Origin: Muribaculaceae bacterium
GTDB taxonomy: Bacteria > Bacteroidota > Bacteroidia > Bacteroidales > Muribaculaceae
Direction: 5' to 3'
NCBI GenBank assembly: GCA_023667285.1
Contig: JAMPAK010000005.1
Location: forward strand, 1 to 36,775
Length of the DNA: 36,775 nt
In this document: positions 29,878 through 36,775 of the stretch, one piece after another
Numbering within the stretch: position 1 is the stretch's first letter
Layout: each line of letters starts with the position of its first letter
Program-made: the position numbers and the translations under genes
Notes under the pieces: generated by a model
What the model was told of the DNA's origin: nothing
Databases searched by the model: none
What the model saw: only the letters and a program-made list of their open reading frames with translations

Positions 29878-31398
29878 ATGTTAGACCTCACACCGCTCGC
29901 CCGCCCCTGGTTCAGCCGGCTCACACACCGCTCCGACTCCTGGACCGGACACATCCGGGAGACACAGCTCCGGGTGCTCTCCCATATCCTGAGGCGCGGA
30001 GCCGCCACCAAATGGGGCGCGGCCCATGGACTCGACGGCTCCACTGACTACGACACACTGCGCCGCGCCTTTCCCTCACCTGTCCCCTACTCCACCCTGC
30101 GCCCTTGGGTCATGAGGATGGTCTCAGGCGAGGCCGATGTCCTGTGGCCGGGCGTGACGCGGCGATTCGCACAGTCCTCAGGGACATCAGACGGCAAAAG
30201 CAAATATATCCCCATCACCCCCGAGGGCCTCTCCCTCTCACACTATGCCGGCGGAGCACACGCCGTAGCCTCATATCTAAATCTCTACCCGGACAGCCGC
30301 CTCTTCAGCGGTCGGAGCTTCATTCTGGGGGGCAGTTTCGCCAACGAGCTCACCCTCCCCCCCGGCGTCAAGGTGGGCGACCTCTCTGCTACCCTCATCG
30401 ACTGTATAAACCCCCTGGCTGAGCTTGTGAGGGTACCGGGAAAGAAGATAGCCCTTATGGAAGACTGGGCCCGCAAGCTCCCTGCCCTTGTAGAGGCATC
30501 CATCAGCCATAACGTCACCAATATCTCCGGTGTCCCGTCGTGGTTTCTCACCGTCCTGCGCCGCGTGCTGGAACATACCGGAGCGCCCACGCTCAGAGAT
30601 GTGTGGCCCGGCTTGGAGGTATTCTTCCACGGGGGCATCTCGATGGCCCCTTACCGCAGCCAGTATGCGGCCATAGCCCCCGGCATGAGATATCTGGAGT
30701 GCTACAATGCCTCCGAGGGGTTCTTTGCCGTGCAGGACACTATTGACAACCCTGCCATGCGCCTGCTGCTCGACTGCGGGACATTCCTTGAGTTCATTCC
30801 CCAACACGATGTCCTCTCAGACACCCCTGAGATCCTGCCCGCATGGTGTCTGGAAGAGGGAAGGGTCTACGGGCTGCTCCTCACGTCGGTCAACGGTCTG
30901 TGGCGCTTCCCGGTCGGCGACACTGTCCGCATAGAGAGCCTTGAGCCCCTCAGGGTGACCATAGCGGGGCGCACGCGCAGTTTCATCAATGCCTTTGGCG
31001 AGGAACTCATGGTGGAGAATGCCGAGGCCGCCCTGGCCCGCGTATGCACGGAGACGGGTGCCACGATTGCCAACTATACGGCCGCTCCCGTCTATGCCTC
31101 AGACGGCAAGCGCGGGCGCCACGAATGGCTCATCGAGTTCTCACGCCGCCCGGAGTCGCTGCCCGACTTTGCCTCGCGGCTCGACTCAGCCCTGCGCTCC
31201 CTCAACTCCGACTACGACGCCAAGCGCACCGGCGACATCTTTCTCGACCCGCTCACCATTGTCGTGGGACGCCGCGGAGTGTTCGACGCATGGCTCTCAT
31301 CGACAGGCAAACTGGGAGGCCAGCGCAAGATACCCCGCCTCTCAAACACCCGCCACCCCATGGACGAAATCCTGGCATTGAACAAGTCGGGACAATGA
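29878..31398 (+). CDS. GH3-superfamily protein (acyl-adenylate/acyl-amido synthetase type)
   Basis: The 506-aa protein belongs to the GH3 family, which in plants adenylates small carboxylic acids and joins them to amino acids. Visible are the ATP loop SSGTSDGKSK (100-109), the central YNASEGF motif (276-282), GLWRFPVGDTVR and the INAFGEELMVENAE hinge entering the C-terminal lid. Bacterial members are common in Bacteroidota but their substrates are unknown. A TTG at 29869 extends the frame slightly, but the ATG at 29878 is the more likely start. The regulator gene starts within its stop codon (ATGA overlap). Confidence 0.85.
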   Translation: MLDLTPLARPWFSRLTHRSDSWTGHIRETQLRVLSHILRRGAATKWGAAHGLDGSTDYDTLRRAFPSPVPYSTLRPWVMRMVSGEADVLWPGVTRRFAQSSGTSDGKSKYIPITPEGLSLSHYAGGAHAVASYLNLYPDSRLFSGRSFILGGSFANELTLPPGVKVGDLSATLIDCINPLAELVRVPGKKIALMEDWARKLPALVEASISHNVTNISGVPSWFLTVLRRVLEHTGAPTLRDVWPGLEVFFHGGISMAPYRSQYAAIAPGMRYLECYNASEGFFAVQDTIDNPAMRLLLDCGTFLEFIPQHDVLSDTPEILPAWCLEEGRVYGLLLTSVNGLWRFPVGDTVRIESLEPLRVTIAGRTRSFINAFGEELMVENAEAALARVCTETGATIANYTAAPVYASDGKRGRHEWLIEFSRRPESLPDFASRLDSALRSLNSDYDAKRTGDIFLDPLTIVVGRRGVFDAWLSSTGKLGGQRKIPRLSNTRHPMDEILALNKSGQ

Positions 31399-33020
31399 GC
31401 GACTCTCATAAAACGAAAATGAAGGCAAGCAGACTATTCATACTTCTCATCATATTATTGACCGTCACCGGAGGATGCATCCGTCGGTCGGCCATCAACG
31501 ACACTCTCGACCGAGTAGACTCGCTGACTGCATATAACCCGGACTCAGCACTGACCATAATTGAGGACATCGACACCGCAGAACTCTTGACCGGCAGTGA
31601 GCGAGCCAGATATGCACTTCTCCTTACCCAGGCCAGATATAAGTCCTTCATCGATGAGACAGACGACTCTCTCATCCGCTCAGCCCTCAACTATTATGAA
31701 CATTCGTCAGACCGCCGATCACTGATGCTTTCACGCTTCTATGCTGGTTTTATCAACCTCAATGCCGGAAAGTATGACGAGGGGTTAAAACAATTCCTTG
31801 AGGCTGAAATTATCGCAAAAGAAATTGAGGACAGTTTTCATTTAGGCATGATATATAACAATCTTAGTAGAATATATGCTGATAATCATGGTGCCAAAGA
31901 AGAGTTTAAATATGCGAATGAGGTTTATAAATTATACAAACAAAGAGGGAATGACCCGTATTTTCGAGAAGCCACTTATAATCTAGCCTTATCCTTTGTC
32001 AACAACTACAATATGTCTGAAGCTGTAGCGATTGCTGACGAAGCTATTGATTCAGCCACCAAAGTTAATGACGAATATATCCTTGGCCGAGTTCTCAAAG
32101 TCAAAGCCATTGCAACGATGAACATGGGTAACTATCCTGAAGGACTACAACTTTTTCTATCCTTACCTCAGGATGTAAAGGACAATTTCTCTGAAAATGA
32201 CGTTTTTCTAATAACACAATGTGCTATTAAAGCCGGTGACATTCATTCCGCAGACTCCATTGTTTTGGATTACATGCGTAAAGGATACTCTAAAAATGAT
32301 TTTCCCGCTGAATATTGGGCTGATAACAACGATTATTTTAGCGCATACCAGGTAATGAAAAAGTATGCTCGAGATTGTGACAGCCTTTTGATGATTCTGA
32401 GAAGTCAGAAAATTTCAGCCGTTGCAACGGAATGGCATATGAATAGGGAGGACATCATCATTCAACAGAAAAAAAATGTAATATTTGGCTCCGTCATCTC
32501 TATATCATTTCTTTTCTTGATAGCAATAATTTTGCTTCTATATATCCGGAATAAAAGAAACCGAGAAGAGAAACTAATCGCAGACATTGATGAGTTGTAT
32601 CGTTCAAGAGCAGAAATTACCAAAGTTATATTGGGGAAATATTTCAATAATACATTGAGTCTATTCCACCAATACGATATATCTCCTAATAAAACAAGTA
32701 CAGAGGAAATAAGAAAACAGTTAAAGTCAGAGGTCTTGAAATTCATGAATGACCCTGAAACCGATAGAGAACTAGCCGGCATAGCAAATTCAATACATTT
32801 CTCTATAGTTGAAAAGTTCGATTCAGATTTTCCCGATGTCCCGAAGCCGACAAGGAAACTTTTCATTTTATATTGTTGTGGGTTTTCTGCATCTGCAATA
32901 AGTTTGTTTCTCAAATGTTCTGTATCTTCGGTACACACCCGAAAATCGAGATTGAAGTCACTTATAATATCCTCCGATTCCTCCTCTAAGGATGAATTCC
33001 TTGAGGTTTTCAATATATAA
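31395..33020 (+). CDS. membrane-spanning TPR/helix-turn-helix regulator
   Basis: The 541-aa protein has an N-terminal signal/anchor (with a possible lipobox ending in C28), a TPR-like helical region (about 40-340), one strong membrane helix (361-385), a Lys/Arg/Glu-rich linker and a C-terminal region (486-525) with KLFILYCCGFSASAISLFLKCSVSSVHTRKSRLKSLI, which looks like a LuxR-type helix-turn-helix. This is the plan of Bacteroidota one-component regulators that sense outside the membrane and bind DNA inside. It lies just upstream of the DUF3244/C10-like genes. Its first 130 codons have a composition like the host; from about 31780 the gene becomes markedly AT-rich. It overlaps the GH3 gene by 4 bases; an alternative ATG lies at 31419. 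Confidence 0.75.
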   Translation: MSDSHKTKMKASRLFILLIILLTVTGGCIRRSAINDTLDRVDSLTAYNPDSALTIIEDIDTAELLTGSERARYALLLTQARYKSFIDETDDSLIRSALNYYEHSSDRRSLMLSRFYAGFINLNAGKYDEGLKQFLEAEIIAKEIEDSFHLGMIYNNLSRIYADNHGAKEEFKYANEVYKLYKQRGNDPYFREATYNLALSFVNNYNMSEAVAIADEAIDSATKVNDEYILGRVLKVKAIATMNMGNYPEGLQLFLSLPQDVKDNFSENDVFLITQCAIKAGDIHSADSIVLDYMRKGYSKNDFPAEYWADNNDYFSAYQVMKKYARDCDSLLMILRSQKISAVATEWHMNREDIIIQQKKNVIFGSVISISFLFLIAIILLLYIRNKRNREEKLIADIDELYRSRAEITKVILGKYFNNTLSLFHQYDISPNKTSTEEIRKQLKSEVLKFMNDPETDRELAGIANSIHFSIVEKFDSDFPDVPKPTRKLFILYCCGFSASAISLFLKCSVSSVHTRKSRLKSLIISSDSSSKDEFLEVFNI

Positions 33021-33033
33021 TTACTTACATTTA

Positions 33034-33055
33034 CCTTATGGTGACCTCCATAAGG
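33034..33055. repeat. palindromic hairpin CCTTATGG/CCATAAGG
   Basis: An 8-base perfect stem with a 6-base loop directly after the regulator gene. There is no T run after it, so it is not a standard terminator. Its CCTTA half-site recurs in the next inverted repeat at 33098-33151, which makes an operator role conceivable. Confidence 0.5.
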
Positions 33056-33097
33056 CCCTGATTTACACACTCCTATCAAAATTCTGCAATTCGCAAG

Positions 33098-33151
33098 CCT
33101 TACAATTTTTAATCTGGTTATAATCAAGGTGTTACATTCCTTATTGTAAGG
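33098..33151. promoter_or_regulatory. inverted repeat upstream of the DUF3244 promoter, possible operator or terminator
   Basis: CCTTACAAT (33098-33106) and ATTGTAAGG (33143-33151) form a perfect 9-base inverted repeat with a 36-base interval. The right arm is followed by TCTTTTT, so it might end the regulator's transcript; it also ends 18 bases before the -33 box of the next gene, the usual place for an activator. Confidence 0.45.
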
Positions 33152-33169
33152 TCTTTTTAGCCCGAAAAA

Positions 33170-33201
33170 TTTGATTTCAGGCCAAAACAATGGTATTTTT
33201 G
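33170..33201 (+). promoter_or_regulatory. promoter of the DUF3244/C10-like genes
   Basis: TTTG at 33170-33173, a 20-base spacer and TATTTTTG at 33194-33201 fit the Bacteroidota consensus precisely. The ATG at 33227 is 25 bases downstream. Confidence 0.75.
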
Positions 33202-33226
33202 TGGGGTATTTTCAAAATCTCACACC

Positions 33227-33601
33227 ATGAAACGAATTTACAGTATTTTTGCAGTGACCTTCTTACTGATCATACCAGGAATGAAGGCAAATGATGATCA
33301 GACCCCAAATCAAGGTCCAATGTATCACAAGGTGATCCTTAAAAAAGAATCCTCTCATCATCGTGTTCCCTCATCTTCATCTATCGGATTCAAGATTGAG
33401 AATGGTTTCATTTTTTTCTCTCAGAACGATCTCTTCATGGCACTGGAGGTCACAGTTACCAATGATGCGACCGGAGAGACTTGGACCGGGTGCGTCTCTC
33501 CTGATATTCCATACATGGATGGACCGGATGAACCCGGCTCATACTCCATCACATGCCTCAATCCTGAAGGTCAATCCTATATCGGATTCTTTGAACTTTA
33601 A
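33227..33601 (+). CDS. small secreted DUF3244-like protein
   Basis: The 124-aa protein has a signal peptide (cut near PGMKA) and a compact beta-rich mature part of about 100 residues that ends in GSYSITCLNPEGQSYIGFFEL, the usual closing strands of DUF3244, a Bacteroidota family of small immunoglobulin-like secreted proteins. DUF3244 genes are often found next to C10 peptidases, and in Bacteroides small staphostatin-like inhibitors accompany C10 proteases; an inhibitor or partner role is therefore possible but unproven. It is the first gene after the promoter at 33170, followed 29 bases later by the C10-like gene. Confidence 0.65.
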   Translation: MKRIYSIFAVTFLLIIPGMKANDDQTPNQGPMYHKVILKKESSHHRVPSSSSIGFKIENGFIFFSQNDLFMALEVTVTNDATGETWTGCVSPDIPYMDGPDEPGSYSITCLNPEGQSYIGFFEL

Positions 33602-33630
33602 CCTTATCACCATATAATTAATTTTCACCT

Positions 33631-34953
33631 ATGAAGAAAGAATTTTTCTTTTCCCTCGCCATGAGTCTTCTCATGGTGGGGTGCTCATCAAATGATGAGC
33701 CTCAGCCTACAGTGCTTGACCTCGACTCAGCGGTCTCATCCTCAATCCTCACTCCCTCAGAGGCCTGCTCTCGAGCAGCCGAGGCTTATGCACAGTTCCA
33801 TGGTCAGGAGACCCAAAACTCTCGCAGCGCAAAGACTGCAACCGCCACCCCCTACAAGTCCGGCCTCTCAAGAGGAGAAGACCCTGCTCTCTACGTTGTA
33901 GAGTTTGAGGAAGGGGGATTCGCTGTGGTCAACGCCTACAGAAACGCCCTGACCAAACTCTATGCTGTTGTCGAAGAAGGAAACTTTGACGACACCAACA
34001 ACTCAGGACTCCGCTACTACATGGAGTATGCCACAGAACGCGCTCAAGCCGAGAACTCGGCAATCGAAGCCGGGTCTTCAAGAGCCGTTGGGGTGACGCC
34101 AAATCCAATTACCCCGGTTTATCCTCCTATTACCATTGAGAGTGATAGACTTATTGGGTCTGACAGCTTAAAAATTCACTCACGAATCTGTTGGAGCAGG
34201 AACACACCATTTAATATAGCCCCGGGCCAGTCCTCCCCATACAATTTGGGTTCATTGGCTACTGCCATGGCATCCTTAGCCGCTTATTATATGGATTTAA
34301 AGACTGATTTAGGAGTCGAAACGCTGAGATATGGCGGAACTAGATATGTGTTTGATTGGTTCGAGATGCTAAAATACACTTCATATAGCAGTCTGAGCAC
34401 AAGTGGGAAAAGTGGAGTCAGAGAATTCTTGCATTATATGCAGACCTACATTGACAATGAATTTCCTGAATACATGGAAGATGGTCAATTCTTAAGTCAC
34501 CAGATTGTTCCCGAAGCCTTGTCTGCCATAATGAATGAAACGATATGGTTTAATGGATGTACTAAATACTCTAGAGCCTCTATAAGTGAAATCCGTAAGA
34601 ATCTTAATGACCATGGTCCACAGATGATGTATGGTGAGACAGTAGAAAAAACCATTGGTGATGTTTGGCTCATAAGGGGTGTCAAAATCAATGAATATGA
34701 AAAAGAGATCCGAAATTACCAGGATCCTATTACCGGTGAATATACAGGTGTCATTTACCAACAGTATGAAATGACCTATGTATACTTTGATTGGTGCCTA
34801 GAAGGACGATCTAATGGTTGGTTCAGTTATGATGGCAGAATGGATTTCTGTAACAATCTCAGTGGACTACCTGGGTATGATCCCTCAGTCAATGCAGACA
34901 ACTATGACAGAAACATTATCTGCTTGTTAGATATATCCTCAAAAAAGAATTAG
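33631..34953 (+). CDS. C10 (streptopain-like) peptidase homologue lacking catalytic Cys and His
   Basis: The 440-aa protein has a lipoprotein signal (MVGC, Cys18) followed by SSNDE, similar to a surface-export signal. Residues about 25-150 match the C10 pro-domain (ALYVVEFEEGGFAVVNAYR and VVEEGNFDDTNNSGLRYYME). The rest aligns with the peptidase domain: PYNLGSLATAMASLAAYY corresponds to the region that normally reads GCVATA, so the catalytic Cys is Ser208; GDVWLIRG corresponds to GHAWVIDG, so the catalytic His is Asp344; and VYFDWCLEGRSNGWF matches the closing HVNWGWGGxxxGYF. Both catalytic residues are thus missing in an otherwise open gene, pointing to a binding or decoy function. Codon use is host-like in the pro-domain and AT-rich after it. 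Confidence 0.75.
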   Translation: MKKEFFFSLAMSLLMVGCSSNDEPQPTVLDLDSAVSSSILTPSEACSRAAEAYAQFHGQETQNSRSAKTATATPYKSGLSRGEDPALYVVEFEEGGFAVVNAYRNALTKLYAVVEEGNFDDTNNSGLRYYMEYATERAQAENSAIEAGSSRAVGVTPNPITPVYPPITIESDRLIGSDSLKIHSRICWSRNTPFNIAPGQSSPYNLGSLATAMASLAAYYMDLKTDLGVETLRYGGTRYVFDWFEMLKYTSYSSLSTSGKSGVREFLHYMQTYIDNEFPEYMEDGQFLSHQIVPEALSAIMNETIWFNGCTKYSRASISEIRKNLNDHGPQMMYGETVEKTIGDVWLIRGVKINEYEKEIRNYQDPITGEYTGVIYQQYEMTYVYFDWCLEGRSNGWFSYDGRMDFCNNLSGLPGYDPSVNADNYDRNIICLLDISSKKN

Positions 34954-34964
34954 TGAACTGTTTT

Positions 34965-35002
34965 GTGGATTCCCGGCTTCTGTCTTGATGCCGGGAATCC
35001 AC
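34965..35002 (+). terminator. hairpin after the C10-like gene
   Basis: A perfect 13-base stem GTGGATTCCCGGC (34965-34977) with its complement (34990-35002) and a 12-base loop. The following TAAATCTC is only weakly T-rich, but the position 12 bases after the stop supports a terminator. Confidence 0.7.
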
Positions 35003-35038
35003 TAAATCTCACTTCTTAGACATTTTTTTGCAATAAAA

Positions 35039-35070
35039 TTTGGAAGTTTAGTAAATATTATATACTTTTG
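35039..35070 (+). promoter_or_regulatory. promoter of the surface lipoprotein gene with long leader
   Basis: TTTG (35039-35042), a 20-base spacer and TACTTTTG (35063-35070) match the consensus. Transcription should begin near 35077, leaving a leader of about 170 bases before the ATG at 35250. The leader contains a small hairpin (GTTGA/TCAAC, 35121-35137) and a 9-codon open frame. Confidence 0.75.
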
Positions 35071-35249
35071 CAGAAAAGATTCTAAACATTCTAAAGAATA
35101 GCGAATAAAACATAGCCTGCGTTGAGTGCAATTCAACATGAACGGTTTCGTCGTTGAAGTGGATTAACTCAGCCTCCTATTGACCCGATAACTGAATTCC
35201 CATTTTTTGACCTATAAAAAATTAACAGTAACTTTTTAACCATTTCATC

Positions 35250-36029
35250 ATGAAGAAGTATCTACTTATCTTAGTCGGGCTGCTGAGCCTGCTGTGTGGG
35301 GTGGCTTCCTGCTCAGACCACGATGATGACCAGGTGCGTCCGGCGATTCCCGGAGAAGTTGCCGACCCCAAATTCCCCTCCGTCGAGAAAGATGTGTTGG
35401 CCGATGTGCTGTCGGGCAAGATGAATGTGATCCTCAAAGACAAAGAGGTGTACCGCCGCATCAAGAGCTTTGACTACACTGAAAAGAACCCGTCATACTA
35501 CTGGGTGATTACATATTATAATCGTCACTCTGATCCTTATTGTATCTACGACGGAAAACTTTGCGTTGACTTCTATAGTTATACCAACGATTTGATGAAC
35601 ACGAAGATTGTTCACACCGATAGAGCAAAGTGGATTGCTTGGAGTGACCTGTATCAAACATGGAGATATCACTGGTTTCGTGGCTTAATGAGGCCGGATG
35701 ACGATGATCTACCCGACCTCTACTGTGGCACGGACTATGACTTCACCTCGCCCAATGGCGTATTATGGGGAAGTGAAATGCCCCTCTACGGGCTCTCAAG
35801 GTCAGAGATTGTGTTTGACGTGACCGGCCGAGACGGCGAGGATCTATACATCCGCTATCTGCTGGCCCCCTACAACGAGGCAACCAATGCCAAGGCCTTC
35901 GCAACAATGGAGGATGGCATGAGATATATGGTCGATATGCTCCGCAGCAAATTTGGCAACGAGGTTAGCGCATGGGGAACCGACGTAATGCTGAACCTCG
36001 ACGAGATCAGCAAGGACCTCGGGATTTAA
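35250..36029 (+). CDS. surface-type lipoprotein of unknown function
   Basis: The 259-aa protein begins with a lipoprotein signal peptide ending in GVASC (Cys21). The next residues SDHDDD resemble the acidic export signal that places Bacteroidota lipoproteins on the cell surface. I do not recognise the mature domain; it contains many Trp, Tyr and Asp residues (YYWVITYYNRHSDPYCIYDG, WRYHWFRGLMRPDDDD) and ends in a helical segment (EDGMRYMVDMLRSKFGNEV). The middle third (about 35500-35700) is AT-richer than both ends. It is the last gene of the accessory segment and ends before a strong terminator. It may act with the neighbouring C10-like protein, though no shared transcript is evident. Confidence 0.7.
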   Translation: MKKYLLILVGLLSLLCGVASCSDHDDDQVRPAIPGEVADPKFPSVEKDVLADVLSGKMNVILKDKEVYRRIKSFDYTEKNPSYYWVITYYNRHSDPYCIYDGKLCVDFYSYTNDLMNTKIVHTDRAKWIAWSDLYQTWRYHWFRGLMRPDDDDLPDLYCGTDYDFTSPNGVLWGSEMPLYGLSRSEIVFDVTGRDGEDLYIRYLLAPYNEATNAKAFATMEDGMRYMVDMLRSKFGNEVSAWGTDVMLNLDEISKDLGI

Positions 36030-36056
36030 TCCCAATCCCCATACGGAAATAAATTT

Positions 36057-36108
36057 CGGCGGCCGGCAGACGCACCCCCAAAGCGTCTGCCAGGCCGCTG
36101 ATTTTTTT
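36057..36108 (+). terminator. strong intrinsic terminator after the lipoprotein gene
   Basis: A long GC-rich stem (GGCGGCCGGCAGACGC with GCGTCTGCCAGGCCGCT, one bulged A) followed by TTTTTTTG ends transcription of the lipoprotein gene. Confidence 0.9.
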
Positions 36109-36209
36109 GTCTGATGATAAGGCGTCTGTGTCGCGTTGGGAGCCTTCGGGATAGTATTTCGGCGGCCCCATATCTGCATTATCGCACTATTGTAACCTCT
36201 TATCATTCT

Positions 36210-36217
36210 TACCTTTG
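36210..36217 (+). promoter_or_regulatory. -7 box of the partial gene at the right edge
   Basis: TACCTTTG fits TAnnTTTG and is followed by CA; a TTG at 36190-36192 may be the -33 element. The ATG at 36250 is 32 bases downstream. Confidence 0.55.
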
Positions 36218-36249
36218 CAACCTAACATTCCTTTTCTTGAAGCCACCCA

Positions 36250-36775
36250 ATGAAAAAACTCATCACCACCTCCCGCAAACAAACCTACTCCCCCATCCTC
36301 GGGATACGTGGCTTCGAGACATACCTCAACCGACGCCTCACGAAAAACGAGCGCAAAGTCATATCCTACCTCGAGCGCATGAAACGCGCACGCCCCGTCC
36401 TCGTCATCGACCCGCCGGGCCGAAACTCCGCGCCAATCCTCCAGGAATACCTCAATTACCGCCTCGCCAAAGGCCCATCGCAAGCCCTCGGCGCCATCTA
36501 CACACCCACACGGCTCAAAGGCAAAGAACGGCGCATAAAATACCTCTCATACCGCCGCCCCGACAGCATCCGCGGACACACACTCGCCTACATCCTTCTG
36601 CTCAACACCCAGGACGCCAAAACCTTCTCACCCCTGCAGGCCCGGCCCGACGGCTTCCTCCGCCTCTGGAACGCCCTCCTCCCCGCCCTCTCCGGCTGCG
36701 GATTCTTCATCGTCCACATTACCGCGCCGCGCACCCGCGGCCACGCCGACAAACTCGCCCGGCTCTTCGGACGGC
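36250..36775 (+). CDS. unrecognised basic protein, 3' end beyond the window
   Basis: An ATG at 36250 opens a frame that stays open for 175 codons up to the window edge, with strongly host-like codons (ctc, cgc, gcc, atc). I do not recognise the family. The protein is basic, rich in Arg and Lys, without a signal peptide. It contains a short hydrophobic strand ARPVLVIDPPGR near residue 48-59, LAYILLLNTQDA near 127 and CGFFIVHITAPRTRGHADK near the edge, giving an alternating strand/helix look. The promoter box upstream and the terminator before it show it is a separate unit. Minus-strand open frames across it lack such support. Confidence 0.65.
   Translation, partial: MKKLITTSRKQTYSPILGIRGFETYLNRRLTKNERKVISYLERMKRARPVLVIDPPGRNSAPILQEYLNYRLAKGPSQALGAIYTPTRLKGKERRIKYLSYRRPDSIRGHTLAYILLLNTQDAKTFSPLQARPDGFLRLWNALLPALSGCGFFIVHITAPRTRGHADKLARLFGR

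Follow-up and report, generated by a model that had tools for sequence, protein, structure and literature searches.

A lipoprotein of peptidase family C10 with replaced catalytic residues in Muribaculaceae, a probable retained pseudoprotease

Introduction

The C10 proteases of gut Bacteroidales are SpeB-like and have been linked to the breakdown of host proteins. Here, a C10 homologue with replaced catalytic residues (pseudo-C10) is described, which is encoded in a stretch of 36,775 nucleotides of a Muribaculaceae bacterium (assembly GCA_023667285.1, contig JAMPAK010000005.1, positions 1 to 36,775). This whole stretch is called the window. The family Muribaculaceae was formerly named S24-7. 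Streptopain homologues were noted in 26 S24-7 genomes (PMC4936053), and all C10 candidates of another study showed a variation of two active-site motifs (Thornton et al. 2010, PMC2873492).

The published precedent is BtpZ (BT2220) of Bacteroides thetaiotaomicron, a C10 lipoprotein without the catalytic Cys, the role of which was given as unclear. The gene btpZ is co-transcribed with btiZ (BT2221), which encodes a small exported protein and ends 14 bp upstream; the Bti proteins were termed staphostatin-like (Thornton et al. 2012, PMC3462683). BT2221 (btiZ) is tabulated as a DUF3244 protein elsewhere (PMC10434189). In the literature searched, mostly outside subscription journals, BtpZ was the only dead C10 protein found to have been reported.

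Replacement of the catalytic residues

The initial annotation had described a streptopain-like pro-domain and peptidase fold with Ser208 in place of the catalytic Cys and Asp344 in place of the catalytic His, and both parts of this description were confirmed. The Pfam model Inhibitor_I69 (PF13734) matched residues 40-134 (E 1.1e-8, 35.8 bits versus a cut-off of 25). Peptidase_C10 (PF01640) scored 23.7 bits at residues 188-398 in the Pfam protein scan, versus a cut-off of 26 bits, and 26.5 bits in the genome scan. The predicted structure has a C10 zymogen-like fold. As a single sequence, pseudo-C10 matched no solved structure up to E 1 and a profile was required; with the profile of a 48-row alignment, the two catalytic motifs of streptopain (6ukd), around Cys and His, fall on the same motifs as residues 208 and 344. 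In this alignment, Cys occupies the column of residue 208 in 41/47 other rows, and His that of residue 344 in 42/47. Furthermore, Arg190 occupies the column of the oxyanion-hole Gln (Gln in 40/47), and Asp387 the Asn column (Asn in 32/47). The canonical landmark is P-F-N at 193-195, following W188, and not the PYN at 203-205 which had been named as kept.

Two further genomes of the same genus (G004 and G023) encode homologues with Arg and Asp like the window protein and, in mafft alignments, Ser at column 208. In our own hidden Markov model (HMM) alignment by hmmalign, Pro occupies the catalytic Cys position in the G023 sequence, and because of this disagreement only the absence of Cys is certain for this protein. 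The three proteins, each from a different species, form one clade in a 79-row C10 tree with masked catalytic columns (support 98 in the SH-like approximate likelihood ratio test, SH-aLRT). They share 31-47% identity, and all frames are open and include a lipoprotein signal and the pro-domain. A profile of this trio was run on a sample of 397 family genomes; the trio scored 670-788 bits and the next match 78.7 bits, while 76 genomes had a match at E 1e-6. The I69 profile also matched both homologues. The Peptidase_C10 model gave 40.6 bits for the G004 protein and no match for the G023 protein.

Sequencing error was rejected, since the same kind of changes is present in two other genomes. The genome of the window is a draft in 22 contigs, but a live C10 gene altered by faulty sequencing or assembly would have to account for three codons differing from the catalytic ones, and is hardly credible.

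In an active enzyme with changed chemistry, Ser208 would be the nucleophile, partnered by Asp344 or by a different residue. Both residues are kept in the clade in the mafft alignment, and Ser208 is the first residue of a long helix (208-223) in the predicted model. Against this, no His is invariant in the trio (mafft alignment), the oxyanion Gln is lost, and hmmalign places Pro, not Ser, in the G023 protein. We regard such an enzyme as very unlikely. As a separate observation, the only Cys residues invariant in the trio are 18 and 46; Cys46 lies in the pro-domain (codon 33766-33768), and 45/45 other rows lack it.

Selection and divergence

The frame of pseudo-C10 is open, as initially annotated. 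The proportion of nonsynonymous differences (pN) was lower than that of synonymous differences (pS) in all three pairs of the clade (window and G004, pS 0.814, pN 0.377; window and G023, pS 0.790, pN 0.483; G004 and G023, pS 0.726, pN 0.466); the pN/pS values of approximately 0.46 to 0.64 are only indicative because pS is near saturation. For the GH3 neighbour, pS 0.608 and pN 0.135 were obtained between window and G004. By these values, pseudo-C10 looks to be under constraint, yet evolving much faster than the GH3 neighbour. Judged from its sequence, it is a pseudoprotease in the sense that the catalytic residues are lost and the gene is kept. The initial annotation had called it maintained, and this view is upheld by replacements common to three species with open genes, by pN < pS and by catalytic domains which are 47% identical between window and G004. 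That the protein is non-catalytic and kept by selection is considered highly probable.

Conservation within the trio is highest in the I69 pro-domain, in which 45 of 99 positions are invariant, versus 38 of 228 in residues 175-402. As a benchmark for relaxed constraint, the relation of pro-domain to catalytic-domain identity was fitted to 820 pairs of live C10 proteins, and the outcome was mixed. In both pairs with the G023 protein, catalytic identity for the given pro-domain identity was below that of every live pair.

Decay of the gene, with catalysis lost, selection relaxed and the frame open only through recent descent, would fit the fast evolution of the clade, the strongly diverged catalytic domain in G023 which the Pfam C10 model misses, the frame-broken DUF3244 gene beside it, and the in-frame stops cutting five other C10 genes of the set. 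It fits poorly with three species at 31-47% identity in which full frames, the lipoprotein signal and the pro-domain are kept and the replacements are of one kind, with the pN/pS values, and with catalytic domains of window and G004 more alike than live pairs predict. Decay is regarded as improbable.

Proposed role of the pro-domain

Pseudo-C10 very likely cannot cut and, because of this, could not activate itself. It would probably remain uncleaved and lipid-anchored, and its I69 pro-domain and C10 scaffold may bind something; lack of activity, surface location and any binding are what we infer here. Spi, the SpeB inhibitor, is the name-giver of the I69 Pfam family. A conserved Spi-like I69 domain on an inert scaffold could bind, restrain or help handle C10-type proteases. 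Putative targets are foreign proteases or those of the cell itself, as the window genome encodes four live-looking C10 proteins, i.e. with Cys and His at the catalytic columns. Such a pro-domain acting in trans is the single mechanism which we rate highest, but as a tentative one, possible rather than probable. If true, it would be a natural, protein-based restraint of C10 proteases and directly testable.

Besides the near saturation of pS, several points weigh against this reading. The trans-acting pro-domain is read from sequence and a predicted model, and the pro-domain may be conserved perhaps only as a folding aid. Divergence is fast, as pseudo-C10 is 47% identical between window and G004 versus 81% for the GH3 neighbour. 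The catalytic identity of this pair is above expectation (z +2.6, with a residual as low or lower in 811 of the 820 live pairs), and at high identity live pairs also tend toward a better-kept pro-domain. The pro-domain bias is not uniform in the clade, because the G023 pairs and the window-G004 pair deviate in opposite directions. Finally, among the four C10 proteins of the window genome that look live, L005 shows Tyr in place of the Gln in our HMM alignment, and thus its activity is uncertain, too.

Recurrence of catalytic loss

The fetched loci contained 90 distinct C10 open reading frames (ORFs), with fragments of interrupted genes counted singly. Of the places listed, those with loci from the searches and 39 stretches picked for short C10 genes were read, while further stretches served the study of neighbours. 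Of these ORFs, 68 were short (360-560 amino acids, aa); 60 had Cys and His, and eight did not: the trio, L137, L082, L114, L087 (Ser, with His kept) and L121 (gapped at the Cys column). Most relatives were collected with the dead-clade profile, which may enrich dead proteins and inflate their share. The 397 genomes are a sample of a larger group, and at most four C10 candidates were scored per genome.

In the C10 tree, seven of 79 rows are dead (L121 was left out). The fewest changes explaining them are five, and at least two are forced by the starred branches; the tree was computed in quick mode with SH-aLRT only, and long branches make several placements unsure. The L137 protein is sister (97) to L086, which looks live and is encoded in the same genome. 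From the placement of the dead rows, catalytic loss has occurred at least twice, and five times on the best tree. Neither this recurrence nor the BtpZ precedent had been noted in the initial annotation. If genomes carry several dead, pro-domain-bearing C10 proteins, counts of streptopain homologues overstate proteolytic capacity. A wider proposal is that lipoproteins of regulator-DUF3244-C10 modules in Muribaculaceae repeatedly become zymogen-like pseudoproteases exposing I69 as a binding or inhibitory surface, such that one module type would give either cutters or non-cutting regulators of surface C10 proteolysis; this we consider unlikely, if conceivable.

Two side observations concern other C10 genes of the set. 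In 9 of the 90 C10 ORFs, Cys and His are present but Val stands in the Asn column; several of these are close in the tree. Five C10 genes contain a single in-frame stop each, which is TAA in four of them and TGA in the fifth, namely L028 at 2272, L131 at 1340, L118 at 2126, L122 at 1560 and L020 at 1600.

Gene neighbourhood

The features of the locus are listed in Table 1.

Table 1. Features of the pseudo-C10 locus (positions in the window unless stated otherwise)
Feature	Position	Strand	Remark
TPR/membrane/HTH regulator-like gene	31392..33020	+	membrane segment and HTH judged by eye
Bacteroidetes-type promoter-like site	33170..33201	+	TTTG-N20-TANNTTTG; 25 bases ahead of the start codon of the small gene
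Small exported protein with a predicted Ig fold, DUF3244-like	33227..33601	+	124 aa; stop codon 29 bases ahead of the pseudo-C10 start
Pseudo-C10 lipoprotein gene	33631..34953	+	open frame, 440 aa
Lipobox Cys; I69 pro-domain; C10 fold	18; ~39-137; ~175-437		residue numbers of the pseudo-C10 protein
Arg190, oxyanion Gln column	34198..34200	+	codon AGG
Ser208, catalytic Cys column	34252..34254	+	codon TCA
Asp344, catalytic His column	34660..34662	+	codon GAT
Stable hairpin 3' of the pseudo-C10 gene	34965..35002	+	-35.5 kcal/mol, z -7.4
Promoter-like site ahead of the downstream lipoprotein gene	35039..35070	+	
Lipoprotein, no known family	35250..36029	+	259 aa

Five promoter-like sites were observed in the window versus 0.12 expected, using the Bacteroidetes-type consensus. 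Pseudo-C10 had been credited with a promoter; a site exists, but it precedes the small upstream gene, and for this reason both genes probably share it. Of the claimed terminator, a very stable hairpin was found, which is a probable transcript end, but the T-run stands apart from it and 0 classical sites resulted from the terminator scan. No RNA family reached the gathering score in 30000-36775, and no anti-phage or phage family matched in the cassette at E 0.01.

The designation of the small upstream protein as DUF3244 holds at the level of family and fold, but the window copy itself matches no Pfam model, DUF3244 (PF11589) included. Five of 23 members of its family match DUF3244 (best 4.9e-5). 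Eight loci drawn in by jackhmmer were removed before family members were counted (L053, L055, L057, L067, L068, L069 and L105, which are other lipoproteins, and L095). The family profile matched structure 3sd2 at E 0.0069. The predicted fold is Ig-like, with DUF3244 structures first among the fold matches; no staphostatin fold was among the matches listed (DUF3244 and other Ig-like chains), which excludes nothing. The published staphostatin-like (lipocalin-like) label may not fit Bti/Bfi, as the window partner is predicted to be Ig-like near DUF3244 and btiZ is annotated as DUF3244 (PMC10434189). In other genomes of the order, DUF3244-like genes were seen at L148, L157, L158, L173, L174 and L186, mostly following a regulator of the same kind; by eye, their neighbours are C25-like, papain-like, C39-like or radical-SAM proteins, not C10 only.

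An obligate partnership with the DUF3244 protein was unsupported. The DUF3244 gene beside pseudo-C10 in G023 (G023:C18) is frame-broken, with signal peptide and domain in different frames. In G004, no member was found within the 349 bp between pseudo-C10 and the upstream contig end, beyond which a copy may be hidden. Within the clade, an intact DUF3244 gene adjoining the dead C10 gene was seen only in the window genome. Relatives of the regulator adjoin other C10 modules, and none was found in G004 or G023 at E 1e-10. The joint action of both proteins suggested initially is weakened accordingly.

The steady partner of pseudo-C10 is the downstream lipoprotein, a homologue of which lies directly 3' of pseudo-C10 in 3/3 clade genomes. 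Near-full-length relatives were found only in these three of the 397 genomes, with at most six candidates scored per genome. The GH3 neighbour of the window lies on separate contigs from pseudo-C10 in G004 and G023. This constancy of the pair in different surroundings would suit a non-catalytic surface ligand binder, i.e. an adhesin, peptide-binding or decoy lipoprotein working with the lipoprotein next door and independent of live C10 proteases, and so would the rapid divergence. Conversely, a separate promoter-like site precedes the lipoprotein gene, which follows the strong hairpin, so co-expression is at most putative; a second copy in G023 follows a DUF3244-like gene with no C10 gene between (G023:C3, L095 6031-7323, minus strand); and the pro-domain is more strongly conserved than the catalytic domain. 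As mechanisms, this doubtful but serious alternative and the trans-acting pro-domain stand nearly level.

At the window's end, the start of the last ORF (36172-36331) is 86% identical over 160 bp to L193 9095-9249, a gene adjoining a live-looking C10 module of the same genome and followed by a run of N.

Comparison with known systems

Like family C10 (streptopain/SpeB, interpain A), the window protein has an I69 pro-domain, a C10 fold and a zymogen-like model, whereas its catalytic Gln, Cys and His are all replaced. Pseudo-orthocaspases have a caspase-like and not a papain-like fold. These bacterial homologues of proteases likewise carry substitutions at both catalytic positions, with Ser for Cys and Tyr for His (PMC6426788). 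With Spi, the clade shares the I69 domain, its best conserved part; Spi is a free propeptide analogue (PMC2873492), whereas the window I69 domain forms one chain with a dead C10 domain. The DUF3244 proteins 3d33, 3sd2 and 4g5a resemble the small upstream family in predicted fold and by a weak profile link, but differ from the window copy, which is without a Pfam match.

The BtpZ/BtiZ locus and that of the window both have a dead C10 lipoprotein gene after the gene of a small exported protein, in the same gene order. For BtpZ, loss is reported for Cys only, whereas Gln, Cys and His are replaced in the window protein; this comparison was made by description. Further, btpZ clusters with btpB and btpC, which keep Cys and His, whereas the window gene has no such C10 neighbour and is followed by a lipoprotein gene instead. 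Because BtpZ is a published precedent, pseudo-C10 extends an already reported oddity by a new branch and is not the first case; added here are the triple replacement common to several species, the lipoprotein partner and the recurrence.
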